56,405 nucleotides of DNA from a virus. The DNA is taken from IMG/VR virus record IMGVR_UViG_3300030333_005663, positions 1-56,405 of that record; one strand, written 5' to 3'. Numbering within the stretch: the first letter of the stretch is position 1; the number at the start of each line of letters is the position of its first letter. The position numbers were made by a program, and so were the translations under genes. The notes under the pieces were generated by a model, which had not been told where the DNA came from, made no database searches, and saw only the letters and a list, made by a program, of their open reading frames with translations. Positions 3,072 through 54,500 of the stretch are shown in pieces.

Positions 3072-3680
3072 TTATCCAATAGTTTTTCCAACATTAATAT
3101 CCATATCTACCTCTTTTTCAATATCTTTCAAATTGAATAGTTCTTTATTGCTTAGATTTCTAAGTAATAAGTTTAAATTATTAGTCATTTGTTCTAATTG
3201 ATTTTCAAGACTAGCAATCCTATCAAATTGTGCATTAAAGTGAGTTAATTGCCCAGCAGTCAATTCTCCAGTTTCTAACCCTTCTGAAGGAGGGTCAGAC
3301 TTCCATGTCGAAGGAACCTCATAGCTACGTAATTCCTCGGGCATTTTAGCGGAAAAAGTTTTCCAATTATCAGCTCCCATTATCTCGATAGCATTAGTTC
3401 CAAATCCATCTCCTGTTTCCTTAATGCGCATAGTTCCTGTTTCACTAGTAAGTCTTCCCATTTGGGGGTTTCTAGCTTCTCTAACTACTCTTCTTTTAGC
3501 AGGTTGAACCATTCTATTTTGAAGATTCCCTAAAACTTCCCATATTTGATCTAAAGAAGATGTAACTTCATAATCGTCAATATCCCCAACTCTTTGCTCT
3601 ACGTGTACAGGATTCCTGGAAGCTGAACTTCTTCTAGCTATAGGTTTTCTTGTACTTCTTTTTAAGGTTGAATTAGACAT
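3072..3680 (-). CDS. Virion-associated hypothetical protein, basic N terminus and C-terminal coiled coil, 202 aa
   Basis: The first 25 residues are strongly basic and Ser-rich (RSTRKPIARRSS), followed by a mixed central region. Residues ~150-185 form a heptad-like coiled coil (FDRIASLENQLEQMTNNLNL). Its start overlaps the stop of the 2403-aa tail protein by one base, so the two are translationally coupled. Position between nozzle and ejection proteins suggests a structural or chaperone role. No family recognised. Confidence 0.6.
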   Translation of the reverse strand: MSNSTLKRSTRKPIARRSSASRNPVHVEQRVGDIDDYEVTSSLDQIWEVLGNLQNRMVQPAKRRVVREARNPQMGRLTSETGTMRIKETGDGFGTNAIEIMGADNWKTFSAKMPEELRSYEVPSTWKSDPPSEGLETGELTAGQLTHFNAQFDRIASLENQLEQMTNNLNLLLRNLSNKELFNLKDIEKEVDMDINVGKTIG

Positions 3681-33852: not shown

Positions 33853-34134
33853 ATGGCTAGAACATCAAATAGTAGTACAAGTGATACACCAGCACCAGCA
33901 GAAAGAAGAATACAGGTCTTCGAAGGTGGTGATTGGGTGGATAAAGTAATAACAGGTAATACAATAGGCGATGTGCGTAATGCACTATCTATTCCGCATG
34001 ACAACCAAGTCAGAGTGAATGAAGTGACCTATACAGATAACTCTTCTGAATTACCTGAGCAAAGAGTTGATCAAAATGGTAATATTATACCAGATTTGGT
34101 TGCTTGGCAGTCTAACACCAAGACTGGGGGATAA
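33853..34134 (+). CDS. Ubiquitin-like modifier with C-terminal Gly-Gly, 93 aa
   Basis: ATG 33853 is chosen because AAGGAG lies seven bases upstream; an earlier ATG at 33799 overlaps a hairpin. An N-terminal Ser/Thr/Pro-rich disordered segment of ~17 residues is followed by a beta-grasp-like pattern: RRIQVFEGG strand, GNTIGDVRNALSI helix, QVRVNEVTY strand. The protein ends exactly in Thr-Lys-Thr-Gly-Gly, so it is already in the mature conjugatable form. It is followed by genes resembling E2, a JAB peptidase and an E1. In bacterial Bil/BUB systems such modifiers are attached to target proteins by the E1/E2 pair. The same-operon context raises the confidence well above what this short sequence alone would give. 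Confidence 0.75.
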   Translation: MARTSNSSTSDTPAPAERRIQVFEGGDWVDKVITGNTIGDVRNALSIPHDNQVRVNEVTYTDNSSELPEQRVDQNGNIIPDLVAWQSNTKTGG

Positions 34135-34142
34135 ATAAAACC

Positions 34143-34218
34143 TAAGGAGTCTGTGAAATCCTACGCCAAAGATTAAGGCATGATGGTGATTGCTTTATTA
34201 AAGGACGCAGACTCCTTA
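34143..34218 (+). other. Long-stem element between Ubl and E2-like genes
   Basis: An 11-bp perfect stem (TAAGGAGTCTG with CAGACTCCTTA) encloses about 54 bases. The 5' arm contains an AAGGAG-like ribosome site that could be masked. It could set the modifier-to-enzyme expression ratio by RNA processing or partial termination. Confidence 0.65.
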
Positions 34219-34233
34219 TAACCTGGAGATAAC

Positions 34234-35910
34234 ATGACAAGCTTAAATTTATTTGATTGTGAAGTAAATAAGTTTGACAAGTATACTCAAATACCATTTA
34301 CAGAGGATAAATTAATACAAGCAATTCTATATAGAGATGGACATAGCCGTTACAATGCAGAGCGAAAAGATTATGATATCTTACCCATAGAAGAGTTGTT
34401 TAATTTTATTAATGCAGATGATATTGTTGAGATATTATGTCAAAAACCAGTTACTGATTTAATGGAAGCAGTAGAGATATATAATGATGATATACAATAT
34501 ATTGTTCAGAGTATGAAAATGAAGAAATTGATAGATTATTCTGAATTTAGATTTGCTTTGACTAAAAACTTTAACTGGAAAGCTGGAACATATCCTTTCA
34601 TTCATAAATTGTTAGATTATTTTGAAGGAAGATATATGAGAGCATCAGGTATAGATAGTTTATTTAAAAGAAGACTAAATAATGAAGGTTATTTAGATAG
34701 TCATCGTGTAAGATTAAATAGATTAGATAAACTAAGAGCTACAGCTAAAAGAATGGTTGGTTCTAAAGAGTCTGATGCATCAGAGTATAAAGAAAGAATG
34801 CTCGAGGTGCTAGAAACTATTAATGAAAATACATTAAAAGGCAACAAGGTTAGTGATAAAATAAAGTTTACTCATTATTTTACTACTAATGGCTATAGTG
34901 ATAGTAATCAATACACATTTCTTGATTTGTGGTTAATTACAAAAATAGATATCGCTCCTATGGATATGTATTACACTAAAAATAATGATGTTGTATTTCA
35001 TTTGACTCAACCAGCAATGACAACATTCCTTCCAAGACCATTGTATAAAGTATTAAATAATGATGTAAGAGGAGCTCGCGCTTCTTATTTATACGGATAC
35101 TCACAAAATAAGCATGCATACTTGCAAGATTATTCTATGTGGGAAAGAGGTGGTAATGGTACTATGCATAGACAACCTTGGAGTAGTGTTTGTTTATCAG
35201 AACATGGTGATGGTGTAATTAGAACCATGGGACGTCATAATTATGCAGCAGCAGCGCATAATTTAACTTTGTGGGGTAGTTCTTATAGTTTAGAGCATAC
35301 AAATCCTTATAATGGGCCTAATCAAATAGCCTATGAACAAGGAATACCAGAAATACTCCATGATAGTCCAGATGATATCAAGACATTTAACGCTCTTATA
35401 GGATTTAGTCCTGAAGATTGTTACAATCAAAGGATAGCAAAACATAGACATGTATTCTTTGCCGAAGAGCCATTAGCAGGAAGAATAATAAATGATATAG
35501 ATTATAGTCTTTATTCTAATCTTGAGTTATATGGCGATGAAATGATAGATGAATGTGTTAATTGTCCTATTAAAGAGGATTGCTATAGAATGTCAGAAAG
35601 AGCAATGTATTATGCAACAAAACAAGAGTGGGGTCCTATAGTTGAAGCACTTATTGCAGAAATGTGGGATGCTGGAGAATTTTCTAATCGTTATGGTCAG
35701 CTTTATTGGTATATCCATTATCTACATAAGCTTTCATTGAAAGATTATGATGAAGGATGGGGATACATTATATGGGCCTTAGATGATAAGACTGATTTCT
35801 TTAAAGAACCCTTAACCGCAGAAGAGCAAGCTTTAGAAGATGCTCGGATTGCACAACTTAACGCCCGAAGAGAAATGGAACAATGGGCTATTGGAGGTAC
35901 TAATGGCTAA
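34234..35910 (+). CDS. E2-like conjugating enzyme candidate, 558 aa
   Basis: The N-terminal ~200 residues are helical. In the centre (about 230-370) a beta-rich stretch ends in H312-x7-C320, in the segment HRQPWSSVCLSEHG. This resembles the His-Pro...Val-Cys-Leu active-site region of prokaryotic E2 proteins, in which Cys forms a thioester with the modifier. An HNLTLWGSS helix follows. Downstream is a C441-x2-C444-x5-C450 cluster that might bind metal. It overlaps the JAB gene by 8 bases. No strong family recognition: the E2 call rests on this local motif and the gene neighbourhood. A target-recognition or scaffold protein of the cassette is the main alternative. It is longer than usual E2 proteins. 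Confidence 0.5.
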   Translation: MTSLNLFDCEVNKFDKYTQIPFTEDKLIQAILYRDGHSRYNAERKDYDILPIEELFNFINADDIVEILCQKPVTDLMEAVEIYNDDIQYIVQSMKMKKLIDYSEFRFALTKNFNWKAGTYPFIHKLLDYFEGRYMRASGIDSLFKRRLNNEGYLDSHRVRLNRLDKLRATAKRMVGSKESDASEYKERMLEVLETINENTLKGNKVSDKIKFTHYFTTNGYSDSNQYTFLDLWLITKIDIAPMDMYYTKNNDVVFHLTQPAMTTFLPRPLYKVLNNDVRGARASYLYGYSQNKHAYLQDYSMWERGGNGTMHRQPWSSVCLSEHGDGVIRTMGRHNYAAAAHNLTLWGSSYSLEHTNPYNGPNQIAYEQGIPEILHDSPDDIKTFNALIGFSPEDCYNQRIAKHRHVFFAEEPLAGRIINDIDYSLYSNLELYGDEMIDECVNCPIKEDCYRMSERAMYYATKQEWGPIVEALIAEMWDAGEFSNRYGQLYWYIHYLHKLSLKDYDEGWGYIIWALDDKTDFFKEPLTAEEQALEDARIAQLNARREMEQWAIGGTNG

Positions 35911-36883
35911 TAAAAGTCAAAAAGCTAAATTTATCATAAGTGAAGATGCATGGAATACAATGCAACAATATGCCAAGCTTGCTTATGATAAAGATGGAAA
36001 TGAAATATCAGGTATATGCTTAGTTAAAAAGACTAAGCATCCTATAGATGATACAGATGTATGGGAGTTATTTGAGCCTTGTATTCTCAAGCAAGAGAAC
36101 TCAACTACAAATACTATACTTGACAAAGATGTATTACCACCATATTATATTGACATGGCTGTGAAGCATGGTACTGATATTAGGTATTGTTGGTGGCATT
36201 CACATCACACAATGGATGCATTCTGGAGTGGAACTGATCAAAATGAGATAGAAGCATGGAAGAATAGCTCTTGGTCATTAGCCCTAGTTATTAATTTAAG
36301 ACAAGAATATTGTCTGAATGTTAGTACATGGGATCCTGTTGAACACAGTGAAGATGTTCCTCTTGAGATAATACGTCCAATACCTGAACCATCAGCTAAA
36401 ATGATAAAAGAGTATAAAGATAAATGCTCTAATATTGTTACTGCAGTGTCAACTTATAACCATAAGAAATATGGATATGGTTATGGATATAATCAAAAGA
36501 ATGGTCAGCTCAGCATGATTCGGTCTGAAGGTATACCTGAAGATTTAGTCTTAAAATGGGGAGCTGGTGATTTATTAGATGATTATGCTAAAGTTTACAG
36601 TCAGGCTGTAGATGGTTTAGATGATTTGAATAGCGAGTTCTTAATTGATAGAATAAAATACGCTCAGTACAAAAAGAAAGTACAAGCATGCAATAAGCAA
36701 TTAAAGAAAGTTAATGCTAGATTTCAAATCAAAATCTACCCTAAAGCTAAGTTAATAGAAAAATGCTCTACTGATTGCCCTGATGAGTTCTTCGAGTATG
36801 ATAACGATGAAACAGAAATGGCATATATGAGTGTTAAGGCTCATCAAGAATCTCTAGAATATGGAGGTTATGGATGGGTATAA
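35903..36883 (+). CDS. JAB/JAMM metallopeptidase (deubiquitinase-like), 326 aa
   Basis: ATG 35903 has GGAGG five bases upstream and overlaps the E2-like stop; an upstream ATG in frame lies inside that gene. The JAMM motif is complete: E34 in GNEISG, then H99-S-H101-x7-S109-x2-D112, the zinc ligands and catalytic glutamate of Mov34/MPN/PAD-1 isopeptidases. It therefore should cleave Ubl precursors or remove conjugated Ubl. As this phage's modifier already ends in Gly-Gly, deconjugation is the likelier role. A Tyr/Gly-rich stretch (YGYGYGYN, ~200) and a helical C-terminal part of ~170 residues extend beyond the catalytic domain. Confidence 0.9.
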   Translation: MANKSQKAKFIISEDAWNTMQQYAKLAYDKDGNEISGICLVKKTKHPIDDTDVWELFEPCILKQENSTTNTILDKDVLPPYYIDMAVKHGTDIRYCWWHSHHTMDAFWSGTDQNEIEAWKNSSWSLALVINLRQEYCLNVSTWDPVEHSEDVPLEIIRPIPEPSAKMIKEYKDKCSNIVTAVSTYNHKKYGYGYGYNQKNGQLSMIRSEGIPEDLVLKWGAGDLLDDYAKVYSQAVDGLDDLNSEFLIDRIKYAQYKKKVQACNKQLKKVNARFQIKIYPKAKLIEKCSTDCPDEFFEYDNDETEMAYMSVKAHQESLEYGGYGWV

Positions 36884-37545
36884 ATATGCGTAGTGAAGGG
36901 TTAGTAAACAGTTTGCATGAATATACATATCATATATTAGGTTGCGGGGCTATTGGTAGCTCTGCAGCCACTCAATTAGTACGCTCTGGTGCTACTAAAT
37001 TTGTATTATATGACATGGATACAGTGGGAACTGAAAACATTGGTGTATCTCAATATTTTGATGAGCATATTGGAATGCAGAAAGTAGAAGCATTGAATGA
37101 ACATATGCTCGGTATTAACTATAATGCAGATATTATGATGGTAGATGAATACTTTAAATTATTCAGGTATCAAAATAATAATGATATAGTTATACTTGGC
37201 TTTGATAGTATGAAGTCAAGGAAAGAAGCAGTAGAAGAGATATGTAGAAGAAAGAATGAGAAACCCTTTCTTTTAATAGATGGTCGTATGGGTGGAGAGC
37301 ATTATCAACAGTATGTATTTACTGATGTTAAGCTTAAATCTTATATGGATACTTGGTATTCAGATGAAGATGGAGACCCTGAACCATGTAATGTAAAAGC
37401 AACTAGTTACTGTTCTAATATGGCAGGTAGTTTAATAGTAAATGCTATCAGGAAAATAGTGTGTAAACACCCCTATGAAGAGTTCCTGACATTTAACTTC
37501 CCTACTATGTCAATAGAAAAGAAAACAGTTGTTCCTCGATCATAA
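36874..37545 (+). CDS. ThiF/E1-like activating enzyme, 223 aa
   Basis: A single Rossmann ThiF-type domain: G23-C-G-A-I-G28 nucleotide loop, Y46-D-M-D49 after the second strand, the NIGVSQYF segment (55-62) followed by DEHIGMQK (K70), and D111. Two Cys (C172, C180) in PCNVKATSYC lie where E1 proteins carry the catalytic Cys. It should adenylate the Ubl C-terminal glycine and pass it to a Cys. It is a minimal E1 without extra domains. The usual E1 Arg in the N-x-N-R-Q segment appears replaced. GGAGG lies six bases before ATG 36874. It overlaps the JAB gene by 10 bases. Confidence 0.88.
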   Translation: MGINMRSEGLVNSLHEYTYHILGCGAIGSSAATQLVRSGATKFVLYDMDTVGTENIGVSQYFDEHIGMQKVEALNEHMLGINYNADIMMVDEYFKLFRYQNNNDIVILGFDSMKSRKEAVEEICRRKNEKPFLLIDGRMGGEHYQQYVFTDVKLKSYMDTWYSDEDGDPEPCNVKATSYCSNMAGSLIVNAIRKIVCKHPYEEFLTFNFPTMSIEKKTVVPRS

Positions 37546-37599: not shown

Positions 37600-38289
37600 A
37601 TGGCGATTAAAAAACAAAAGCGTAAAGCTGTGTCTACTAATCCTCAATTACTCTTATTATATGGTGCCCCTAAAGTAGGTAAAACTACCATGTTATCACA
37701 ATTAGATGATTGTTTAATTGTTGATACTGAAAGAGGTGCAAATATGCTAGAAGGGTATATTGAAAGTGTTACTAGTAGAGATGAGCTATTAGATCTGCTT
37801 ATTCAGTTAAAAGATAGTAAAGATGTTAAGTATAAGTATATAGCATTAGATACTATTGATAAAATAGCTGATTGGGCAGAACAGAGAACGTGTGAAGAAG
37901 AAGGAGTCAGGTCATTAGCAGATTTAGCCTTTGGTAAAGGTTATGGCATAATGAGAGAAAAGGTATCTAAAACGATAGAAGCCTTTCTTGACGTTACAGA
38001 GCATCTTATAATAGTAGGGCATAGAAAGCCAGCATTTGCAGTTACAGATGGTAGTCCAATAGTTGTACCTGAGTCACTAGATATGACAGGTAAATTAAAG
38101 AATATCATAATGTCTCGTTGCGATGCAATAGGGTATGTGTTCAGAGAAGAAGATAGCTTAAAAGTATCATTTCAAGCAAATGAAGCTGTTGAAGCTGGAA
38201 GCAGATGTGAACACTTAAAAGGCAAAATAATCGATTTCAAATGGAATCACATTTATAAGGAGAGTAAAAATGGCAATAGTAAGACCTAA
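37600..38289 (+). CDS. Sak4-like RecA-fold ATPase (single-strand annealing/recombination), 229 aa
   Basis: Walker A at residues 22-30 (GAPKVGKTT), an IVDTE strand at 33-40, and a Walker B-like LDTIDKIADWAE segment near 85-95, followed by VGHRKP. This is the layout of phage AAA_24/Sak4 ATPases, which anneal single strands with an SSB partner. The putative SSB follows immediately (overlapping start). Initiates with a GGGAG ribosome site. Confidence 0.85.
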   Translation: MAIKKQKRKAVSTNPQLLLLYGAPKVGKTTMLSQLDDCLIVDTERGANMLEGYIESVTSRDELLDLLIQLKDSKDVKYKYIALDTIDKIADWAEQRTCEEEGVRSLADLAFGKGYGIMREKVSKTIEAFLDVTEHLIIVGHRKPAFAVTDGSPIVVPESLDMTGKLKNIIMSRCDAIGYVFREEDSLKVSFQANEAVEAGSRCEHLKGKIIDFKWNHIYKESKNGNSKT

Positions 38290-38866
38290 ATCCTCTAGTG
38301 GAGGTGGAAATAAATACTATGGTATTTGTGAAGCAAATATTATAGGATATACTGATAAGAGTGCAAACTTTCATTGGGCTGATATCTTTATTGAAGTTGA
38401 GATAAAGCAAAAAGACAGTGATTACACTAAAAAGATGCAAATCGCTGGAAGCCTTGAAAGGGATTCAGATAATAAAGTATCTGGTGGTTCAGTATTGAAT
38501 AGAATGTATAAGTTCTTTGATGTTATTGGATGCAAAGCTGGTGTTAATATAGATGGTCACTTTGAATTAGAAGATGGCACACCTATACTAGATATAGCTG
38601 AGTATCTTAATGAGAACTTTGTTCATGAAAGTGAGCAATGTCCATTCTTGGTATATGTTTACAAGTCTATTCCAAAACCAAATGAAACTCAATCATACAC
38701 TAGAGTAGTGCCTAAGATTCACTTGAATACTCAAAAAGGCATGGAGCAAATGGAGAATGATATAGCTTATATGAAGAAGCAAGGTATCATTAAAGAAATT
38801 GATCCTAATGTTAAGCCTAATGACCAACAAGTAAACTTAAGTAATGGGGCTTTAGATAATCTGTAA
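38270..38866 (+). CDS. Putative single-stranded DNA-binding protein, 198 aa
   Basis: Position directly after Sak4-like ATPase, a Gly/Ser-rich N terminus (SSSGGGNKYYGICEA) and an OB-like beta-rich core with an acidic, helical C-terminal tail. Sak4 proteins usually act with an SSB encoded next to them. Sequence evidence is weak, so this call depends on context. Confidence 0.5.
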   Translation: MAIVRPKSSSGGGNKYYGICEANIIGYTDKSANFHWADIFIEVEIKQKDSDYTKKMQIAGSLERDSDNKVSGGSVLNRMYKFFDVIGCKAGVNIDGHFELEDGTPILDIAEYLNENFVHESEQCPFLVYVYKSIPKPNETQSYTRVVPKIHLNTQKGMEQMENDIAYMKKQGIIKEIDPNVKPNDQQVNLSNGALDNL

Positions 38867-40623
38867 TGATTATAGAGATTGCTAAAAACTCTCCAAGTGC
38901 AAGAGGTATGTTCATCCAAAAGGATGAGCTGCCTCAGCACATTGATACTGAGGAACCTTTATTTCGTTCAACCTATTTATATCCTGATGACGTACAAGAA
39001 CATCTTGATAAGCATGGTTCTATAAAGGATTATTTTGGAGTTAGAAGTATCGATAATATTATTATAGATATTGACAGAAAAGATAATTCTGATGAATATA
39101 CATTAGAGCAATTAAAAGAAGTTGTAGATATATTATATAGCTTTGATGTAGACGATGAATCTATGCAGCCATTCTATAGTGGAACAGGATATCATTTAAT
39201 AGTATCAAATGAAGTATTTGGATTTGAAGCATCAGAACAGCTTCCAATGATAGTAAGAGCTACTATGAGTAAGTTATTCCCTGATATAGATAATAGTATT
39301 TATATGAGAAGCGGGATATACAGAGTGCCTCATACTATTAATAAGAAGTCAAAACTCTACAAGATACCAATTCATATGGATGAGGTATTTAAAGAGAAAG
39401 CAGAATATATAAAGCTATTAGCACAAAGTCCTAGATTAGACTATAAGTACCGACCTTTGGTTGGTTCTGGTCAATGTAAGGATGAAATAGTAATAGCTGA
39501 TAGTAAAATATATTCTATGCAATCTGTTGCAGAGCCCAATAAAGTAGTTCCATGTGTGCAAACTATGCTTATGCAAGGACCACAAAGTGGAGAAAGGCAT
39601 AATACTGTATTACGAATATGTAGTCATTTTAAGCGTAATGGTATTCCTAGCGAATACGCTAAAGCATCATTAATGCATTGGAATAAAGGCCAATTGCATG
39701 AAGATGAAATAAATAGGCTTATAAAGAATGCATATGATGGTAATTACAGATATTCATGTAACGACCCGTTGCTTAAAAAGCATTGCAAGACTAATTGCAT
39801 ACATTTCAAAAGAAAAGACTATCTAGTAGATGTTAAAACAGCAGAAGAATTGCAAGAAGATTATGCTAAAAGACTTACAACTAACTTTAAAGGTAGAACT
39901 ATTCCTTTATCAGCAATGTTAGGCGTAGATGTAGACGTAGATATATTTCCTGGCGAATTAGTTACTATATTTGGGCCAACAGGCTCAAATAAAACTACAT
40001 TAGCTCAGAATCTAGCTCTAGGAGTTGATTTTGTTAATGATAGGATAAACACTGATTGGCAAATACCTACATTATTTCTATCGCTTGAATTGTCAGGTTG
40101 GTATGTACATCGTAGACATCTTCAAATCGTATCAGGCTTATCTAAAGATGAAGTCAATAATGATTATGAGGAAGTATATGAAGGTCATAAGGATAAACTT
40201 AGCAATATAGTAATACAAACTGTAGCACCAACTGTACAGCAGATACAAGAAAAAATAAGAGACTTACAGCCAGCTATGGTAGTTGTAGATTATATTGATT
40301 TAGTAGATGTGCCTTTTAATAAAGGTGGAGAACATCAAGCTATCAAATATATATCGCATACACTATCTAACATGGCAGTCAATATGGATATAATCATAAT
40401 ACAAGTATCGCAAGTAAGTAGGGAATACAGTAGAAACGAGGTTCTAGACCTGTATGCAGGGAAAGGATCTGGTGCAATTGAAAACGCTTCTAGGAAGGTT
40501 ATAGGGCTTAATGGACAAGCTAATTCACATCGAAAGAACGTGCATATGTTTAAGAATACTGATGGAGAATTGCTTGACTGTGAGCTTGAATGGCGTCCTA
40601 GTTTTAGATTAAGGAGAATATAA
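38866..40623 (+). CDS. Fused primase-helicase (AEP-like primase plus DnaB-type helicase), 585 aa
   Basis: The N-terminal ~170 residues show archaeo-eukaryotic primase elements: IIIDIDR (D68, D70), SGTGYH (105-110) and R153 in IYRVPHT. Residues 298-315 hold Cys residues of a likely zinc-binding or PriCT segment (CNDPLLKKHCKTNC). The C-terminal half is a DnaB-like helicase with Walker A GPTGSNKTT (K376), MVVVDYIDLV near 470 and IIIQVSQVSRE near 515. It primes and unwinds the phage chromosome; no phage DNA polymerase is encoded nearby. Confidence 0.85.
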   Translation: MIIEIAKNSPSARGMFIQKDELPQHIDTEEPLFRSTYLYPDDVQEHLDKHGSIKDYFGVRSIDNIIIDIDRKDNSDEYTLEQLKEVVDILYSFDVDDESMQPFYSGTGYHLIVSNEVFGFEASEQLPMIVRATMSKLFPDIDNSIYMRSGIYRVPHTINKKSKLYKIPIHMDEVFKEKAEYIKLLAQSPRLDYKYRPLVGSGQCKDEIVIADSKIYSMQSVAEPNKVVPCVQTMLMQGPQSGERHNTVLRICSHFKRNGIPSEYAKASLMHWNKGQLHEDEINRLIKNAYDGNYRYSCNDPLLKKHCKTNCIHFKRKDYLVDVKTAEELQEDYAKRLTTNFKGRTIPLSAMLGVDVDVDIFPGELVTIFGPTGSNKTTLAQNLALGVDFVNDRINTDWQIPTLFLSLELSGWYVHRRHLQIVSGLSKDEVNNDYEEVYEGHKDKLSNIVIQTVAPTVQQIQEKIRDLQPAMVVVDYIDLVDVPFNKGGEHQAIKYISHTLSNMAVNMDIIIIQVSQVSREYSRNEVLDLYAGKGSGAIENASRKVIGLNGQANSHRKNVHMFKNTDGELLDCELEWRPSFRLRRI

Positions 40624-43650: not shown

Positions 43651-45204
43651 CTATGCGCGACGAGTAATTATAAGTTTCGCAAGTTTAAGTAAATGTCTAT
43701 TGAACCAATGCTTAGAACCAAATTCTGATATAATTCTTCTAGAAGTATTCTTACCTAATCGTTTCATAGCTTTTAAAGCTTGAAATCCATCCTTATTCTT
43801 GATTGCATCTTTTAGAATCTGACTATTTGCCACATAAGCATCGGGCTTCTTGAATAAATTGTCAGCTTTGCTAGATGCATGAGAATGGATAGTTATATGT
43901 CTACGCCTTTGAATACCACCTTCCCCTACAACTTCTTCAGGTCCTTTTAGATCATATTTGTCCGTAGTAAGCATTGACCATCCAACTTGTCCATTTTTCT
44001 TTTTCCAAAAAATACCATCAGTATTAACCCCACCAAGCAGATAGCTAGGCTTAAAATCAGGACTAAAATTAATATGAAGCCTTCCATTCTTAACATAATA
44101 ACTTTTCATGAATCGTTCTACTGCCCTTATATAATCATCTTGAGGATGTATTCTACTTGAAGCGTCTAATAAATGTCTACTAGTTCCAAATGAAGCTGCC
44201 CTATGCTTTGCCCATTCAAACACTTCTTTAGGATTATTTAAGTCTTTAGCATTCCTAGTAACATATTCTGCTAATTTAAACATAGAGTCTTTTTTATTAG
44301 CTAAAGAAATAGGAGCTTTATCTACTCCTCCCATAGAACCTATAGCACTATCTGTAAATCTAGATATAGTAATTCTATCATGAGGGAGTAATTGCCATTT
44401 AGCAGCTACCCCTGCATGAGGTCCTTTAAATACATTTTTTGTAATTTGTTTTTCAGGGACAGAGTATCCTGCAGCTTTTAATTTTTTCTCATCAAAGGGC
44501 TGGTCAGTAACGGCCTTATTCAATTCAGTCTTTATGATTTCATGTCTAGTTTGTCGCTTCTGAGCTCCTATACCACCTACTACTTTATCAGGCTGGAGAT
44601 TTTGCCTTTCATACATATAATCTAGCTTGATTGTTTGTAATAGTTCTCCAGGGCTACCATAAGGTATCTTTCCTTTCTTGATAAGGTTTAATATCTTATT
44701 AACATCTCTCTCCGAAACATTTCCATTCTTGACAATAGTCCTAGGGTCTATTTTTTCCCCAGCAGGCAAAATCTCGTTTATTGCAGTTAGTTCCCTTAAA
44801 GCCATTCCGCCCATATGGCGAACAGTTCCTTTTAAAGGTCTTCCTCTTCCATGAAGAAATAATTCTTGAGTAGCATCAGCGTGTGCTTGCTTTAAAAATT
44901 TAGCAGTATCTCTTAATTCACTTCTATTAGAACCAAAAAAGTGATCTTTTTGTAGCATTAATTTCTGCCAATTAGTGACACCAGCAGCATAATAACCTTT
45001 TAATATATTATTAGCAGTAGAAGCTCTAGATGCTATAGCTTTTTGTACAAAAGGAGTTCTCCTAGCAGCCCACTTAGCTACAGGAACGCCTCCATATGCA
45101 ACACCTAAAATACCTAGCCCTGTCCCTACTCCAGACCCAGAGCTTTCATTATCAATGCCATCTACCTCATCTTTATAATGTTCTAATAATGTAGGTTCTT
45201 TCAT
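43651..45204 (-). CDS. Last gene of the leftward operon: ejection-block protein, 517 aa
   Basis: The N-terminal ~25 residues after a short acidic stretch form a Gly-rich hydrophobic segment (GTGLGILGVAYGGVPVAK); the middle is basic and helical, and the C-terminal half alternates beta and helix. It overlaps the 3098-aa gene by one base. It is probably an internal virion protein co-ejected with the polymerase-like protein. I see no catalytic motif I can defend. Confidence 0.55.
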   Translation of the reverse strand: MKEPTLLEHYKDEVDGIDNESSGSGVGTGLGILGVAYGGVPVAKWAARRTPFVQKAIASRASTANNILKGYYAAGVTNWQKLMLQKDHFFGSNRSELRDTAKFLKQAHADATQELFLHGRGRPLKGTVRHMGGMALRELTAINEILPAGEKIDPRTIVKNGNVSERDVNKILNLIKKGKIPYGSPGELLQTIKLDYMYERQNLQPDKVVGGIGAQKRQTRHEIIKTELNKAVTDQPFDEKKLKAAGYSVPEKQITKNVFKGPHAGVAAKWQLLPHDRITISRFTDSAIGSMGGVDKAPISLANKKDSMFKLAEYVTRNAKDLNNPKEVFEWAKHRAASFGTSRHLLDASSRIHPQDDYIRAVERFMKSYYVKNGRLHINFSPDFKPSYLLGGVNTDGIFWKKKNGQVGWSMLTTDKYDLKGPEEVVGEGGIQRRRHITIHSHASSKADNLFKKPDAYVANSQILKDAIKNKDGFQALKAMKRLGKNTSRRIISEFGSKHWFNRHLLKLAKLIITRRA

Positions 45205-48200
45205 TACAATAATCCTTTAGGATAAGGCTTTTCTTTGGGTTCTTTTTTATTTTTAGAAACTGCTTTTTGCAATTGTAATAAAGGCATGCCAGTCCATCTC
45301 ATAATAGCATTTAATGGATTTTCTATAACATTACCTTCATTTAAAGGGGAGAAGTCTCTCAGGAGCCTTCCAAATGGAAACATAGTATAAACATAATATT
45401 GGCTCAATCTAGTATAATCATCATCTACTATACTTCTTATAACAGAATTAGGTATTCTAGCAATAGGTGGAGTTATCGCCTGTAATGGTGCTAATGGCCC
45501 TTTGTAGGTGCCAAAGAAAGCTTTATCTCTTTCATCCTCATCTCCAAACAACCACTGTGCGGTATCTTCAAACCAGTTATATGGAGCTGGCATAGCAGTA
45601 TCAAATAATGAATAAGCAAAGATATTCCCTAGTGCAAATACAAACATATCTATTTGAGTTTGTCTTGCAAACCTATTAAACTCATCAGTACCAGGTCTAT
45701 AACCATAAATCCTCGCTTGTCTTCTAACATCATTCCTAAAACTAACAGCATTCCATGACCATGTTTGAAAACGTGTCATCACCTTACCAAGCGCTGTCCT
45801 AGAGAAAGCTGGCCTATAAGGAGCAGAATATAAGAATTGAGTAGCTTTAACTCCTTTCCTAGCTAATTCTAGCAACATAGGGTCATCGTATCTCTTTATT
45901 CCACCGCCAAACTTATTCCACCAATGAACATAATGAGCCATAAAAGCATCACGCCTAATTTTTCTCTCAGGAATTGACATCCATTTAGCAGCCCAATTTT
46001 GAACTTTCTGAGTTACTCCATATTTTTTACTAATAGATAATAGAGTATCTTCTTTCATCTCAGGATCTCTAGTCATTTTTTTAGCGACATCAGCAATAAA
46101 TTGCTTATTCCTTTCAATTGCACCTGCTTTTGTTAGTCCAAATTCATATAACATTCTTTCGGGGTATATTCCAGAGGATACCACAAACCTATCCACTGCT
46201 TCAGCATTAGTCCATTCAGGGTTAATTTGAGATAAATACTCATAATTAAAGGAGTTTCTCCAATTTCTCCATCCTACTGATTGTATAGTATGGGTAGTAC
46301 CACCAAATATATTACCTGTAACACTTTTAGGGTGCACCAATAAAGAAGCCATTTCAAACTGTGCTTCTAGATTACTCCAATGGCGCAATTGATTCAGGTC
46401 AAATTGTCTTAACTCTTTCGGTAGATGCTTACCCTTTTTAAGTAATCCTAACTTAGAAGCTATCTTATTTACTCTATTTAAGACTCTATCGTCAGCCCAC
46501 CTTGCATATAATGTTCCTTGAAGCTTCATATCTCTATTTTTTAATACATCAGTAGGGATAATATCGGGAGAGCCCATTGCGCCTTGAACGTAAAGCTTCA
46601 TGAAATTACTCCAAGCTTGAGTTTGTCTTTCTCCGTATTTGGGAAGCATATTTTTCCCCATTTGATTGATAATCTCCCTGCTAAATATTTGTGACAATTG
46701 CCTGTAATAAGTATTTGTCAAGCTTCTTATGTATGATTCAGGGACAGAAGCATCTACAGAATGTCCTGCTACATGAGTATTTCTACTAAACATAGCTCCA
46801 GCTCTTTCATCTGCATTAAAATGTTTGATTTTATCGGGCTTAACTTTCTTCTTCTTTCCGATATCAGCCATAATTCTATCAAATGACTGCCATTCCATAA
46901 TATCTCCAAATTCCCAGTCACCTGTTAAAGATTTATTTTTATACATTAATTTTGTGACTTGTTCAATCTTATCTTCTTTTGTTAATGTTGGGTCATTTAA
47001 AAGATTTTTAGCTGTTTTTTCTAAGTATTCTGATGCTTTTTTCTTGTTAAAATGCATATGAGGCCAATAGTACTCAAAAGGTATTTTACCAGTAGATTCA
47101 AGCATTGACAGTCTAAATCCTTTAACTATATCAGGATCACCTACCATTTCACCCATCATTTCCCTAGCTATCATTCTCAAATTATCTATACCATATTTAG
47201 AAGATACATCTTCTCCTCTTTTCCAAGCATCTTGTAAATCAACAATAAACTTTTTATAGTCTAGCTTAGGATAAAGCTTTTGTTTATCATAATAACCCTT
47301 AATATAAGGTTTCATAACGCCTTCTTCACCACGAATCATTTCATGCATTTCTTTGGCGGTTTGAGTATATTCAGCGTTAATTTTTTTAACCAATTCTTGC
47401 CCTGTTACTTTAACTCTTCCTTCTCCAAAGTCAACAGTATATTCTTTTTTCTTTAATTCTTCCCAATTATACTTCTTGGTAGCATTGTTGTATTCGGTAA
47501 TATAGTCAGAGATTTGAGCATGTTTTCGAGCAGGGTCTATTTTATCATTATTAGCCAATACGTTCTCAGCATATCCTTTCTCTCTTTGCCTTACTGCTAT
47601 TTCTCTTAAAGCTTCTCCGTCTTCAATAGAATTAACAAATAATAACCTTTTCTGCAAATCTTGTATTTTTTGATCCCCCTCATGTACAGCAGAGTTGTTC
47701 ATTCTACCTATCCAAGATTGAACAATATCTATATACGAAGAAGGTCTTGCTATATCTCCTTGAACCAACTTGCCATCTACGGTAGAAAACCAGCCTTTTT
47801 CATATAAAAGCTGCATATCTTCCTTCATCTGTTCTCTACTTATAGTTCTAGGGAATAAATACCAATGTCTCTTACTTAATCTTAATTTGCCTTTTTTGTC
47901 GAATAAACGCTGCCATATAGTCCCTGTTTGAGTATCCCTTAGCCAATCTCTAAAAATCCTAAAATCTTCCTTATTCATGGCATTTAGCTCTTTTCCAAAT
48001 AATCCTCTAGTTAACTCGCTTATACTATTTCTAACTTTAGGGTCATATACTTTGAGCATATCAGCTGTCTCTAATATAACCTTTTTCATCTCAGCGTCAA
48101 CAGGACCTTTCTTTAATCCTTCGTATCCTGTTCCTTCATAAGCCTTTTCAACTAAAGTTTGGACTTCCCTATTTCCATCAAACTCTAAAGTAGGGTCTTT

Positions 48201-51200
48201 ATCTATATTCTCACTTATTTCCTTAACTTCTTTTTCAGTAATATTAGTACGAACAGTTGAATCAAACTTTTCTGCAATATCCCCTAAAAATGAACGAATA
48301 CTTTTATCTGAAATTTCTAAACTTTGAAATCCTAATCTACTCATACCTGTTCTAGAAGCTTCTCTTCTTAAAGTCATTAGATAATCTCTTATAACAGGAG
48401 TCTTCATATCCTTCTTATAAACCCTTTTAATCAATCTATCGATTTTATCTAAATTACCTCTATTTAAAGAGCCTAGCATGAGAACATCAAAAGCCTCTTT
48501 TTCTAATTCAGTTAAATTTTCTTTAAATTCTCTGATTTGTTTGTCAATCTCGATTTGATCTATTTCTGTTGATGTCTTTTGGCCTAATTTCTTAGACTTA
48601 GGTTCAAATCCCCTAACCCATCCTAACTCTTTGACGGCAGCTTCATGTAGCTTTCTAATTTCAGCATCCGCAGCTAATTGTTGCAAACTTTCTGCAACAG
48701 GCAAGTCAGCCATATTCTTCCTAGCTTTAGCCATTAAAGCACTATTCTTCTTTAAATACTCTATCTTTTTGTGAATATTAGTTAGATTTGCTAATTGTTG
48801 CTCATTCATTCTCTCAGCTATATTAATAATTCTTTGTGCAGTAACTGCATCTGTAATATCATTAATAAAGAAATTATTAGACTCGTTATGAAGCCTCTTT
48901 ATTATATTCGCTCTATATTCTTTACCAGTGATATTATCTGCTCCTTTTTTATAAGCATCAGGTATGTCAAACATAGTTCCTTTGATAGCTTTTACGAATA
49001 CCTTATAGTCTTCAATTGCTAAATCTCTACCATCTTGAGTATTTAATTTATATTTTAAAACATTATCTATATGATTGTTTAATGGTACTCTAAATGTATT
49101 ACGACCTAATATTTTTTGAAGCCATTCATAGCCTTTAACAGAAACTTCAATATCATCATACATTTCTTTTAATTTATCTCTATCGGCTCTATTTATAAGG
49201 TTATCTTCCATGTATTTAGTAGCTGTGTTTAATAATCTACCCACTTTAGTTAATAAAGTATTATTTTGGCTAGCATCTAAATCCCAAACCCCTTTTGACT
49301 TTTCATGTATATCTGAAATAGACCATTTTCTCTGAGAGGTATGATCTCTTCCATAAAAAGCACTATTCATTTCTGCTAATTTACCATATGTTCCCCCTTT
49401 TAATTCCCACATAGAAAGTTTTTTCTCTTTAGCATCAGTAACTTTCTTCCATATATCGACACCTTTTACATTTCCTGCGTATTTCTGGACACTAACAGGC
49501 TTAAAATGAAGATGCCATAAAGCTTTAAACCAAGTCTCCCCACTCTTTAATCCATTTTCATCCATAGGGTCTGAACCTAATGCTACTTGTGCTCTCCCCA
49601 TTTCTCTTGCAGCTTGCTGGGCTTTGGGGTCTTTGCGAATACCTATAGTAACTTTGTACCTTTCCCACTTATCAGGTCCTGTTTTTCTTTGGAACTCATA
49701 TGTTTCCTTCCCATTATTAGCTGCTAAAGCTGAATAGAGAGAGGACATAATTTGTTTTTGTGTAACAGCTATACCTAGCATATTTCTGCCTTCTACTGTT
49801 CTTCTAGAAACCTCTACTCTATGTAGAGGATTATATTTGTATAATATGCTGCTTTCTAATTTATCTTGCTCGGGGGTTAATTGCTCTGCTAACACCTCAT
49901 TATACCTTTTACCTTTATTTACACCCCATTCTACTTTTTCAGTCTTATTATCCCCAACTATCCCTCTAAAATTCTTTTTTGCCTTAGCAGATAACGCATC
50001 ATACTCTTTCGGAGTAATCGTCTTCTTCCCATCGGTATATTTATAGAACTCCCTTTTATTATTGCCAAACGCCTCTTTCCACTCAGGTTTAAATCCTCCT
50101 TTACCACCCATAAAGAACCAAGCCTCATCTCCATCTAAATCAGCTCCACCTAAAGCTCTCATAGCCCTTGAATGCATTAATATTCCATGACCTTTTCTAC
50201 CTGTAAAACCAGCAAATTCTAGCTTATGAGCTCCAGATATAGAGTCCATAGGAACTCTCATTACAACTGAATTGAAGATTTCTTCTATTTGCTTTTTAAC
50301 AGCAGGGTCTTGCTTTTTGTGCATTTGAGTATAAGTATCATATAAAGTTTGCAAATCTACCCTACCTATACCCTTAATCCCTGTATTTATCATAACTTTT
50401 TTATAAGCATCATCTAAGAAGAATATCTTATCATTAGTGTTAAGTTCTTTTAACCTAGGGTTCACATTATCAGCATCTACCTGTAAGAACTTATCATAAG
50501 GTCTAATCCTTGCTACTCCTGAATTGACTATTTTAGGTTTAGCTGTTTGATCTACAACATAATTACGAATAGCTTGCATTCTATAATGAGTAACAAATTT
50601 ATGTAAAAATGCTGATATAGCACTCACATCTTTTCCTCTGCTTCTTTGAGCAGCTGTCCATTCTCTACTTCTTTGCAACATTCTATCAGCTATAGATGTA
50701 AATTCATTTATCTCTTGCTTAGCTGCATGATATTCTGAATCTTTTATTTCGCCTGATGCTAGTTGCTCTTGCAATCCCTTAGCATTAAGTTTTAAGATTT
50801 GCTCCCAAGCTATCTCTGTAAAATGATGATTATTAGGCATTCTCATAGCTTTTAATAATTGAACTATCCCAATATCATCCATATTTTTTCTTAATTCTTC
50901 TAAGCTTTTACTCGCTTCTTGCTTACTATAATCTTTCGAAGATATTAAATCAATATGTGATTGAAGCATTTTATTAGCTGCATCTGTCCCTAAAAACCTT
51001 CTTTCTATAACATTATCAAAAAAGTCATTAATAGTATCTTGTTTTATGTTCCACATTGCATGATTAACTAGCGAGCCCATTAATTGCTTAGGGATACGTT
51101 GAGGCTCTAACATATGATTATTTTGCTTAGTAGACATATTATACTTAATATGTTCAGGGCTTAAATCATTATAAATAACATCATAATCTCTTTCACCTCG

Positions 51201-54200
51201 CTGCTTAGCTGCAGAATCATATATTTTAAAATGTAAATTATCTTGCTGCATCATCTTTGTTTGCTTAGAACCAGCAGCATGCATCATATATTTTCCTAGC
51301 ATAGCTCCATGTTTAGCATTTGGGCTAACTATGAAAGATTTGTTTTGACCAGAATCTGGCATCCCAGCATCCGCATTAATAGCATCAATCACATCATCTC
51401 TAACGATAATAATACCATCAACATGTTCAGGTAGCTCTTTGTTTTTCAAGTCAGTAAATCTATTGTCTTTTTTACTTAAATAACGGTCATCTACCAGTCT
51501 ATACCTAAAGTTGCCATTATCTAGGTCACTTACCCCACCTTTCATTTCTTTTAGATACTTAGTGATAAAAACACCATCACCTGGATATGAATTATTCCAC
51601 CATATTTGTGCTCTTTTATTAAAACCTAAAGCATTGGGAATATATCCCTCTTGGTTTACCTTATTTTTTAATTCTTTGAAGCTTTTATTGACATTACTTC
51701 TATCAATTTTAAAACCATTCATTTCTATGTCATAAAGAATATTAGAAGTCACACCTTTTTTTAGCGTTTTAATATCTACTCCAAACTCCTTCGCTGATTT
51801 ATCATAATCACCTTTAAACAAATCAGCTGTATTTACTTTATCTGTTAAGGGATGGTATCGAACAAAGAAAACTTGGTCTTTATCTGCTTTACCTCCAAAC
51901 GCATGATATCCTTCTCTGTGCATTTGACTTATAACTTTACCCATCCATTTTTTATATTCAGCTACAGCTTGTTTTGGATTAGAACCACTAGCCATCTCTC
52001 TTCTTATGTCAGATAAGCTTTTATCTTGATATCCTCTGCCTTTTACAAATTCAGTAACAACATCTAATACAGCGTAAGCTTCGCCTTTGCCTCCTGCATC
52101 CCTAAATACAGTTTCTAATATCTTTTCTGGTTCTCTTCTTTGCCTAGAATTTCCAGCCTTTGTAATAGGATTATCTATGTCTAGGAAAGATATTTTTCCA
52201 AATGGATCTACGGAAACAGCTCTAACTGGTTTGTCGAGGTTTCGTCTAGTCATCCATTGGCGCATTTCTAATCTAGCTTCTTTACCTAAAGTTATCTTAG
52301 AACCATATTTCTCTTGTAACCAGCCTTCTAATTTATTCGCCCATTCTGCCGACCTATTTTCAGTCGAGCCAGGATTAAGATAATCTTTCAATAAACTTTC
52401 TATTTTTTGGGAAATTTTATACTTTTCAACTGTTTGAGCAGGAACATCTGGAGCATTTTTCCATACTTTAGATAAGTGAGTGTCTGTAAAGTAATAAGAG
52501 GTCTTACCTATAGTAACATCGTCAACCATACCAATATCAGTATCAGAATCTTTCTGCTCGTTTAATTCTGTAGAATCGGTTTCCTTGCTATCAGTAGCTT
52601 GTCTGATTGACAACTCTTCATCCTCTAACCTTTGTCGTTCTTCTTCTAGACGCTCCCTTTTCCTCGCTGATGTATTAGGTCTCTCCAGCTCTTCAGCGAT
52701 TTCAATTTGTCGTTCTAAAATTTGATTTACTCTATGCTCATCTTCTGGAGTAAGGTTTTTATCTACTTCTGATTTAGCTTTTTTTACATTCTTAAAATGT
52801 GTTTCAAAAAAGGAAGAAGCCTCTTTGAGTCCTGGCTTAGTAATAGTATCCCATTCACCAATCATCGCCAATCTTCTAGGAGGTTTAGGGGGTTTTTTGA
52901 CATTTACAAACTTATTTACAGTCGGCTCATATGAATACCATTTACTTCTTTTTAAATCGAAGACATGCACAGGCTTTTTATTGTTAATAGCCATTTGAGC
53001 CGCCCATCCTGGCCCTTTATTAACTCTAGTATTATCTCCCTTTAAAGTACCAAAGATATATACTGAATCTGAACCTTTAACTTGATGCCAATTCCTTCTT
53101 GCTTGATTCACTTCAAAGTTAGAAAGGTCTCCTACTTTAGCATCTAATTTACTTTCAGCTTTAGCAAGCTCTCTATTAGATTCTTGTAATTGTTTTTCAG
53201 TTAATGGAATTTCTGCACCATGCATATCTGAAGGCTTGGAGCCTTTCTTTGTAACATAGTGAAAAAGAGGAATATTATACTGGTTCGCTAAAGCTGCAAT
53301 AGCTTTTTCCATGCCTCTACTTCCACCAGAAACAATATAATGTTTATATTTCTGAAGAGTATCTTTGCTTATCTTGAGCTGACGTTCACCTTCTACATAC
53401 TTCTGGGTTATCTCTACTCCTTCATCGGTGATAATAGGCTTTTCTTTTATCCTATGCCCTTGACCTGCTTGAACAGCAAACAATTCTGCTATAGCTAATC
53501 TTTCAGCAGGGTCTCCCCACAGCCTCTTGGCCTCTTTCTTAACTAAAGGCTTTACCTCAGGGGGTAAACTCTTCCATTCAGGCAACATTTCTGGATCCAT
53601 AGCTACAGATAGCTTAGGATTTTTTGCTGCCTCTTTGCGCATTTTTACTATATATTTTTGCTGCTTAGCTATTGTCCATGGGGTCTCTTTTGCTCCAAAG
53701 TAAGCCCCAAGTAAATATTCATATATTTGCTCAGGAGTAGTCGCTCCTCTCATTGTAGCAGGTAATCCTTGGAATAAAGATCCTGCCATACTTCCTATCA
53801 CCTTCTGACCTGCGCTTGGATTAGCGCTTTTTAAATTTCCTATAACTCTAAAAATACCACCAGCTTGAGCTCCACCCATAAAAGCATGCATCATCTGGTC
53901 TACTCCACCTTGCCAAGATGATACTGAAGAAGCAACACCTAAATGAAAAGCTCCTTCCATAATATGCCTAGCTCTATCTCCTGCTATAAAATTAGATACA
54001 GTCCCAGCAGCACCTGCTCTACCAGCTAGTGCCTTACCGAAAATAGGTTTAGCTATATCTTTAGCTTTTTTAGTTGCTATTTTAGCTATAGCCATAGGAA
54101 CTGATTTGTCATTCAAGGACTGAAACATTTTAGCAGCACCTTTTAAACCTAAAATCTTACTTGGCCCAGCTAATATACCAGGAGCAAATCCAGCTAAATG

Positions 54201-54500
54201 CCCCATATTACGTATAATAGCCTCGTATTCATTGTCAGGCTGGTCTGCTATATTTAAGGTCGTAAAACCCTCTACAAAACCCCCTATAGCTTGCCAAATA
54301 GCCTCGTCTACATTAAACTCTCCATCGTAATATGGTATTTGATAATAATGAGCATGCTGCTCAAGGTTTGCTTTTTGTTCTTCAGTGAATTGAAAAGGGT
54401 TCTTTTTGAGGTAGTCTAAAGCAGACCTAGTTTGATGTTGGTCCATTTTGGGTTGAAAATCAGGAACAGATTCTCCCTGTTGTTCCATAGGATATGCCAC
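45204..54500 (-). CDS. Giant polymerase-like virion protein with SLOG domain, 3098 aa
   Basis: N-terminal ~240 residues: Ala/Gly-rich amphipathic segments typical of ejection proteins. Residues ~386-525: a Rossmann-like SLOG/molybdenum-carrier-type domain with S391-G-G393, SDSVYIFG (477-484) and the KKPVHVFD strand (508-515). Residues ~1000-1110: a beta-like barrel candidate starting D1028-G-I-I-I-V with Lys 1054, 1063 and 1070. Residues ~1340-1470: a second barrel candidate with GVARIRPYDKF, then R-V-P...GHGILMHS and A-D1454-L-D1456-G-D1458. This last arrangement parallels the catalytic Asp triad and flanking segments of RNA polymerase beta-prime. The last ~450 residues contain the conserved-looking region of large phage polyvalent/internal proteins. 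It is likely an injected single-chain RNA polymerase; activity is inference. Confidence 0.7.
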   Translation of the reverse strand: MAYPMEQQGESVPDFQPKMDQHQTRSALDYLKKNPFQFTEEQKANLEQHAHYYQIPYYDGEFNVDEAIWQAIGGFVEGFTTLNIADQPDNEYEAIIRNMGHLAGFAPGILAGPSKILGLKGAAKMFQSLNDKSVPMAIAKIATKKAKDIAKPIFGKALAGRAGAAGTVSNFIAGDRARHIMEGAFHLGVASSVSSWQGGVDQMMHAFMGGAQAGGIFRVIGNLKSANPSAGQKVIGSMAGSLFQGLPATMRGATTPEQIYEYLLGAYFGAKETPWTIAKQQKYIVKMRKEAAKNPKLSVAMDPEMLPEWKSLPPEVKPLVKKEAKRLWGDPAERLAIAELFAVQAGQGHRIKEKPIITDEGVEITQKYVEGERQLKISKDTLQKYKHYIVSGGSRGMEKAIAALANQYNIPLFHYVTKKGSKPSDMHGAEIPLTEKQLQESNRELAKAESKLDAKVGDLSNFEVNQARRNWHQVKGSDSVYIFGTLKGDNTRVNKGPGWAAQMAINNKKPVHVFDLKRSKWYSYEPTVNKFVNVKKPPKPPRRLAMIGEWDTITKPGLKEASSFFETHFKNVKKAKSEVDKNLTPEDEHRVNQILERQIEIAEELERPNTSARKRERLEEERQRLEDEELSIRQATDSKETDSTELNEQKDSDTDIGMVDDVTIGKTSYYFTDTHLSKVWKNAPDVPAQTVEKYKISQKIESLLKDYLNPGSTENRSAEWANKLEGWLQEKYGSKITLGKEARLEMRQWMTRRNLDKPVRAVSVDPFGKISFLDIDNPITKAGNSRQRREPEKILETVFRDAGGKGEAYAVLDVVTEFVKGRGYQDKSLSDIRREMASGSNPKQAVAEYKKWMGKVISQMHREGYHAFGGKADKDQVFFVRYHPLTDKVNTADLFKGDYDKSAKEFGVDIKTLKKGVTSNILYDIEMNGFKIDRSNVNKSFKELKNKVNQEGYIPNALGFNKRAQIWWNNSYPGDGVFITKYLKEMKGGVSDLDNGNFRYRLVDDRYLSKKDNRFTDLKNKELPEHVDGIIIVRDDVIDAINADAGMPDSGQNKSFIVSPNAKHGAMLGKYMMHAAGSKQTKMMQQDNLHFKIYDSAAKQRGERDYDVIYNDLSPEHIKYNMSTKQNNHMLEPQRIPKQLMGSLVNHAMWNIKQDTINDFFDNVIERRFLGTDAANKMLQSHIDLISSKDYSKQEASKSLEELRKNMDDIGIVQLLKAMRMPNNHHFTEIAWEQILKLNAKGLQEQLASGEIKDSEYHAAKQEINEFTSIADRMLQRSREWTAAQRSRGKDVSAISAFLHKFVTHYRMQAIRNYVVDQTAKPKIVNSGVARIRPYDKFLQVDADNVNPRLKELNTNDKIFFLDDAYKKVMINTGIKGIGRVDLQTLYDTYTQMHKKQDPAVKKQIEEIFNSVVMRVPMDSISGAHKLEFAGFTGRKGHGILMHSRAMRALGGADLDGDEAWFFMGGKGGFKPEWKEAFGNNKREFYKYTDGKKTITPKEYDALSAKAKKNFRGIVGDNKTEKVEWGVNKGKRYNEVLAEQLTPEQDKLESSILYKYNPLHRVEVSRRTVEGRNMLGIAVTQKQIMSSLYSALAANNGKETYEFQRKTGPDKWERYKVTIGIRKDPKAQQAAREMGRAQVALGSDPMDENGLKSGETWFKALWHLHFKPVSVQKYAGNVKGVDIWKKVTDAKEKKLSMWELKGGTYGKLAEMNSAFYGRDHTSQRKWSISDIHEKSKGVWDLDASQNNTLLTKVGRLLNTATKYMEDNLINRADRDKLKEMYDDIEVSVKGYEWLQKILGRNTFRVPLNNHIDNVLKYKLNTQDGRDLAIEDYKVFVKAIKGTMFDIPDAYKKGADNITGKEYRANIIKRLHNESNNFFINDITDAVTAQRIINIAERMNEQQLANLTNIHKKIEYLKKNSALMAKARKNMADLPVAESLQQLAADAEIRKLHEAAVKELGWVRGFEPKSKKLGQKTSTEIDQIEIDKQIREFKENLTELEKEAFDVLMLGSLNRGNLDKIDRLIKRVYKKDMKTPVIRDYLMTLRREASRTGMSRLGFQSLEISDKSIRSFLGDIAEKFDSTVRTNITEKEVKEISENIDKDPTLEFDGNREVQTLVEKAYEGTGYEGLKKGPVDAEMKKVILETADMLKVYDPKVRNSISELTRGLFGKELNAMNKEDFRIFRDWLRDTQTGTIWQRLFDKKGKLRLSKRHWYLFPRTISREQMKEDMQLLYEKGWFSTVDGKLVQGDIARPSSYIDIVQSWIGRMNNSAVHEGDQKIQDLQKRLLFVNSIEDGEALREIAVRQREKGYAENVLANNDKIDPARKHAQISDYITEYNNATKKYNWEELKKKEYTVDFGEGRVKVTGQELVKKINAEYTQTAKEMHEMIRGEEGVMKPYIKGYYDKQKLYPKLDYKKFIVDLQDAWKRGEDVSSKYGIDNLRMIAREMMGEMVGDPDIVKGFRLSMLESTGKIPFEYYWPHMHFNKKKASEYLEKTAKNLLNDPTLTKEDKIEQVTKLMYKNKSLTGDWEFGDIMEWQSFDRIMADIGKKKKVKPDKIKHFNADERAGAMFSRNTHVAGHSVDASVPESYIRSLTNTYYRQLSQIFSREIINQMGKNMLPKYGERQTQAWSNFMKLYVQGAMGSPDIIPTDVLKNRDMKLQGTLYARWADDRVLNRVNKIASKLGLLKKGKHLPKELRQFDLNQLRHWSNLEAQFEMASLLVHPKSVTGNIFGGTTHTIQSVGWRNWRNSFNYEYLSQINPEWTNAEAVDRFVVSSGIYPERMLYEFGLTKAGAIERNKQFIADVAKKMTRDPEMKEDTLLSISKKYGVTQKVQNWAAKWMSIPERKIRRDAFMAHYVHWWNKFGGGIKRYDDPMLLELARKGVKATQFLYSAPYRPAFSRTALGKVMTRFQTWSWNAVSFRNDVRRQARIYGYRPGTDEFNRFARQTQIDMFVFALGNIFAYSLFDTAMPAPYNWFEDTAQWLFGDEDERDKAFFGTYKGPLAPLQAITPPIARIPNSVIRSIVDDDYTRLSQYYVYTMFPFGRLLRDFSPLNEGNVIENPLNAIMRWTGMPLLQLQKAVSKNKKEPKEKPYPKGLL

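Follow-up and report, generated by a model that had tools for sequence, protein, structure and literature searches.

A candidate ubiquitin-like conjugation operon beside the replication genes of a marine-type phage, with counterparts in crAss-like and Flavobacterium phages

The window analyzed in this study, 56,405 bases long, is an entire IMG/VR virus record from an uncultured marine-type phage. It carries genes for a terminase, a portal protein, a major head protein, and an endolysin. Four open reading frames located between positions 33853 and 37545, all on the plus strand, encode a small ubiquitin-like protein (Ubl), a protein of 558 amino acids, a JAMM (JAB) protease, and a ThiF-type E1 (Table 1). 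On their 3' side lie genes for a Sak4-like ATPase, a 198-aa protein, and a primase-helicase. A preliminary description of this DNA had placed the four genes at these positions, and the only coordinate that we changed is the start of the JAB gene. Its longest reading frame spans 35840-36883, but the real start is the ATG at 35903, which has GGAGGT upstream and near which the homologs also begin. The JAB gene overlaps each of its flanking genes by about 8-10 nt. The Ubl ATG is preceded by AAGGAG, and ribosome sites are plausible for the operon genes inspected (Ubl and JAB). Elsewhere in the window, the minus strand encodes two giant proteins of 3098 aa (45204-54500) and 2403 aa (3680-10891), neither of which has a Pfam match.

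Table 1. Features of the operon and of its 3' neighbors
Feature	Coordinates	Strand	Details
Ubl modifier, 93 aa, K-T-G-G end	33853..34134	+	Gly92-Gly93 at 34126-34131
Stem-loop in the Ubl/E2-like spacer	34143..34218	+	z -4.0, strong hairpin
E2-like protein, 558 aa	34234..35910	+	H294 at 35113-35115, C320 at 35191-35193
JAMM (JAB) protease, 326 aa	35903..36883	+	E34 at 36002-36004, H99 at 36197-36199, D112 at 36236-36238
Minimal ThiF-type E1, 223 aa	36874..37545	+	C172 and C180 invariant; C180 at 37411-37413
Sak4-like ssDNA-annealing ATPase (outside the cassette)	37600..38289	+	
Primase-helicase (outside the cassette)	38866..40623	+	Used for the core-status test

The C terminus of the Ubl is exactly Lys-Thr-Gly-Gly. 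Choosing Ubls by their GG tail would make any estimate of its conservation circular. The tail was therefore assessed a second time in Ubls recognized by profile, with reading frames of similar size as controls. A GG tail is present in 62 of 62 Ubl-profile hits, compared with 11 of 513 (2.1%) small control frames from the same loci. In the relatives, K(T/V)GG ends the Ubl or is trailed by up to about 12 residues, and the 1-12 residues that some carry beyond GG are as in a precursor. Judged from these sequences, the K-T-G-G tail is under strong constraint. An AF2 model of the Ubl has a beta-beta-alpha-beta order and is beta-grasp-like. The top Foldseek matches of this model include ubiquitin-like, Mth1743, and TtuB folds, all of them weak (E 0.02-0.03) and none at E below 0.001, and the protein belongs to no family in Pfam, NCBIfam, PHROGs, or PADLOC. 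The Gly-Gly-ended, beta-grasp-like modifier proposed earlier is retained, with an exact KTGG end, a GG tail in every profile hit, and a weak fold match.

The two better-known enzymes of the operon were assigned as the preliminary description had proposed. The JAB protein carries the full JAMM metal motif (E34/H99-S-H101-x7-S109-x2-D112 in the numbering of the 326-aa protein), and each of these residues is invariant in its relatives. Its nearest match in the PDB is RPN11, and its Pfam score is below threshold. The E1 lies above the cut-off for Pfam ThiF (2.9e-20), and its best NCBIfam match is to the ThiF sulfur-carrier adenylyltransferases (2.8e-22). In the PDB it is nearest to UBA5 (2.7e-15), and in PADLOC it matches CBASS E1-E2 models (6.5e-15). 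Both C172 and C180 are invariant in relatives. These families and motifs, together with the genomic context, support the presence of a Ubl, a JAMM protease, and an E1 in one phage operon that adjoins replication genes.

The 558-aa protein required a closer examination. Its E2-like core comprises about residues 180-360, and four residues (C320, W347, Y351, and P358) are invariant across 45 sequences, with C320 found in 45/45. Of the E2-like pair H312 and C320 suggested previously, only the cysteine stands. H312 was rejected because it is unconserved in relatives; the conserved histidine is instead H294, within HPY(I). Across the relatives the segment around C320 reads [HF]PYI...(G/S)xVCL[DS], which resembles the E2 signature HPN(I/V)...GxICLD except that Asn is replaced by Tyr and the loop is longer. 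UFC1 is an E2 without the HPN Asn. Profile alignment with five eukaryotic E2s places C320 on the catalytic Cys with a score of 24.8, versus a maximum of 20.9 in 100 column shuffles, and the hhalign E values against eukaryotic E2s are only 0.013-0.036. The AF2 model (pLDDT 82.5) has the order helix, strands, active-site loop, and helices, a predicted arrangement that is compatible with the UBC fold.

The profile and structure searches that had been proposed for all four proteins were informative for the E1, JAB, and Ubl proteins (UBA5, RPN11, and beta-grasp-like folds, respectively) but not for the 558-aa protein, which has no match in Pfam, NCBIfam, PHROGs, or PADLOC. A PDB sequence search with its profile returned nothing, and a Foldseek search of the PDB with its model returned no E2 and no other match. 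Foldseek does recover homologs from phages; a weaker match is a protein of the crAss-like phage cr128_1 whose 435 aa equal the length of the E2 candidate of that phage. Searches of cultured phages by tblastn with the 558-aa and JAB proteins found no match. On balance, we consider it probable that this protein has an E2-like identity. Beyond the E2-like domain, a second conserved cluster, C-x(2-5)-C-P-x4-C (C441, C444, and C450; 35554-35583), is possibly a metal site or a target-binding part.

Relatives were collected by viral scans seeded on E1 and JAB. The alignment-based E1 scan reported 304 hits, of which 80 were kept; scans with the single 558-aa or primase-helicase protein gave no relatives, whereas alignment seeds worked. 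Some loci are the same contig repeated, and counting was therefore by distinct E1 sequence. The full order of Ubl, E2-like, JAB, and E1 genes was found in 50 loci distinct by E1, and this conservation rules out chance reading frames. Mean pairwise identity within the clade of the window falls from 77% for E1 to 53% for JAB, 51% for Ubl, and only 30% for the 558-aa protein. The putative transfer enzyme thus evolves fastest while its motif residues stay fixed, a pattern that would fit a role in target choice.

The association of the operon with replication genes was examined by using the primase-helicase as the seed. E1 is present in 33/33 of these loci that have over 3.5 kb of upstream sequence, and all four genes are present in 18/18 that have over 7 kb. 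In three of these 18 loci the Ubl tail is a variant (KRGGK, VKGGK, or NTGGAA). These counts are to be read with the overlap between the primase-helicase-seeded and E1-seeded sets in mind, as several contigs are common to both. The cassette behaves as a core neighbor of the replication genes rather than as occasional cargo.

Operons with the same gene order also occur in the crAss-like phages crAss001 (gp79-gp76), cr85_1, cr111_1, cr128_1, DAC15, and others, and in Flavobacterium phage Fpv3, where the genes bear no annotation beyond ThiF, metalloprotease, or hypothetical. In crAss-like phages they adjoin a primase or a uracil-DNA glycosylase gene, and in Fpv3 the latter. The E1 (1.4e-33) and JAB (2.7e-9) proteins are homologous to those of the window, as is the Ubl, which scores above 100/100 shuffles. 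Whereas the window Ubl ends at GG, the Ubls of these phages continue for about 110-200 aa beyond a KKIKSG or KQVKSGG sequence, an arrangement that would suit release by a protease. Their E2 candidates are shorter (371-444 aa, versus 558 aa) and contain H-S-H...C-x-G; in hhalign comparisons with marine or eukaryotic E2s they do not score above shuffles. Because crAss001 and Fpv3 are cultured, their homologous genes make the operon testable in culture.

A scan of bacterial genomes found no close relatives of the operon; the hits were four rumen MAG contigs, with identities of 33-36%. Two or three of them have distant E2-like (H-x-C-x-G), JAB, and E1 genes next to one another in the same order. 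The contigs with this gene set (L112, L113, and L115) were assigned to bins of rumen or gut bacteria. In L113, a small beta-grasp-like reading frame without GG lies ahead of this set.

Among the known systems closest to the operon is Bil, an antiphage system of bacteria that resembles ISG15 conjugation. The preliminary description had held that the gene order differs from that of Bil, but this is incorrect, since BilA is the Ubl, BilB the E2, BilC the JAB, and BilD the E1 (PMC11354881), and the four genes of the window stand in the same order. The proteins differ. BilA comprises two Ubl domains, and BilD pairs an inactive with an active adenylation domain (PMC11354881), whereas the window Ubl is a single domain of 93 aa, its E1 is a minimal 223 aa, and its E2-like protein is far larger. 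Furthermore, BilABCD is a host defense island, whereas the genes described here are core to the phage. PADLOC gave no BilA, BilB, or BilC match for the Ubl, E2-like, or JAB protein, and BilD is absent among the best 25 matches of the E1. Bub operons have the same kinds of parts but are distant. The E1 profile matches Citrobacter BubCD (PDB 9ea4; E 9.3e-7), which is a fusion chain, whereas JAB and E1 are separate genes in the window. The phage cassette is predicted to work like Bil and Bub, yet it is outside Bil by protein family and by E1 architecture.

Three other systems were compared. Ubl, E2-like, JAB, and E1 genes occur together in the row 6d type of operon (Iyer 2006; PMC1779556). UBA5, the nearest PDB relative of the E1, belongs to the eukaryotic UFM1 pathway, to which the E2-like protein has no sequence link. 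PRTRC models, which we take to represent the row 6d type, fall far below their cut-offs (A, 11.9 of 101.8 bits; ThiF, 29.4 of 144.75 bits), and there is no other PRTRC match. Type II CBASS was rejected, as E1 and the E2-like protein are separate rather than joined in an E1-E2 fusion (Cap2) and no CD-NTase was found among the scanned proteins. Within the literature searched, which included only a minority of subscription papers, no phage cassette of this type is described.

The best explanation for these findings is a core phage operon with a ubiquitin-like cycle of its own, and comparative sequence data make this reading probable. If it is true, then E1 would adenylate Gly93 and form a thioester with it, for which Cys180 is the probable site. 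The modifier would then move to Cys320 of the 558-aa protein, which would join it to lysines of target proteins. The fast-evolving extensions of this protein might choose the target without a separate E3. JAB would take the modifier off conjugates and, in relatives with longer tails, would trim it after Gly-Gly, a step that would be superfluous for the window Ubl. Conjugation of the Ubl most likely would occur on proteins during early infection. The position and universality of the operon favor phage replication or recombination proteins, or early-infection host proteins, over the virion.

Several alternatives were weighed against this conjugation cycle. The Ubl could be a sulfur carrier of the ThiS/MoaD/TtuB kind, with a GG thiocarboxylate as the sulfur source for modifying a nucleotide, tRNA, or DNA, JAB trimming the precursor and the 558-aa protein serving as the acceptor enzyme. 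The best NCBIfam match of the E1 and the likeness of the Ubl model to Mth1743 and TtuB, among others, would agree with this. However, the window proteins that were scanned include no sulfurtransferase, desulfurase, or thiolase-type enzyme, an E2-like Cys site is present in the 558-aa protein, and UBA5 ranks first for E1 in the PDB, which leaves a sulfur carrier unlikely. Tagging of the phage's own virion as a maturation step appears more unlikely still. Virion substrates are possible because Bil-type conjugation is reported to affect tailed-phage assembly (Hor 2024, cited in PMC13288928), but the operon lies in the plus-strand replication block, whereas the structural genes are on the minus strand.

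Least probable is that the operon is Bil-type defense cargo that excludes rival phages or spoils their virions. The parts and order of BilABCD, and the match of E1 to CBASS E1-E2 models, would fit such cargo. Nevertheless, there are no BilA, BilB, or BilC model matches and no close relatives in bacterial genomes, and the operon is not sporadic. Wherever the lineage could be tested, the operon is present beside replication genes, which favors a core function over an accessory weapon. A broader proposal is that marine tailed, crAss-like, and Flavobacterium phages carry, within their core replication machinery, a Ubl conjugation system that is viral rather than host-defensive and that tags proteins for phage replication or host takeover; on this our judgment is evenly balanced. 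In bacteria, ubiquitin-like operons are best known for defense against phages; a complete cassette among the core genes of phages would mean that phages use protein tagging as well. Exact residues for testing and mass-spectrometry signatures are now at hand for phages already cultured.

RNA structure is also evident at these loci. The stem-loop between the Ubl and E2-like genes may set the ratio of Ubl to enzyme, and several relatives have hairpins in the same spacer with different stem sequences. Separately, a structured RNA motif, AAYAACUGGUCCU(R)UAAGUCC...GGCAAAGGAAUAUGUGAG, is enclosed by a strongly covarying outer stem in related phages. Neither the Ubl/E2 spacer nor this motif corresponds to a credible Rfam family. 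Sites include L140:5121-5210, L050:4409-4492, L133:3924-4005, and others, both in the Ubl/E2-like spacer and at other intergenic positions. In the outer stem, 46 cells show two-sided changes, a count reached in 0/500 shuffles, and an exact pattern for the motif matches 81 IMG/VR stretches.
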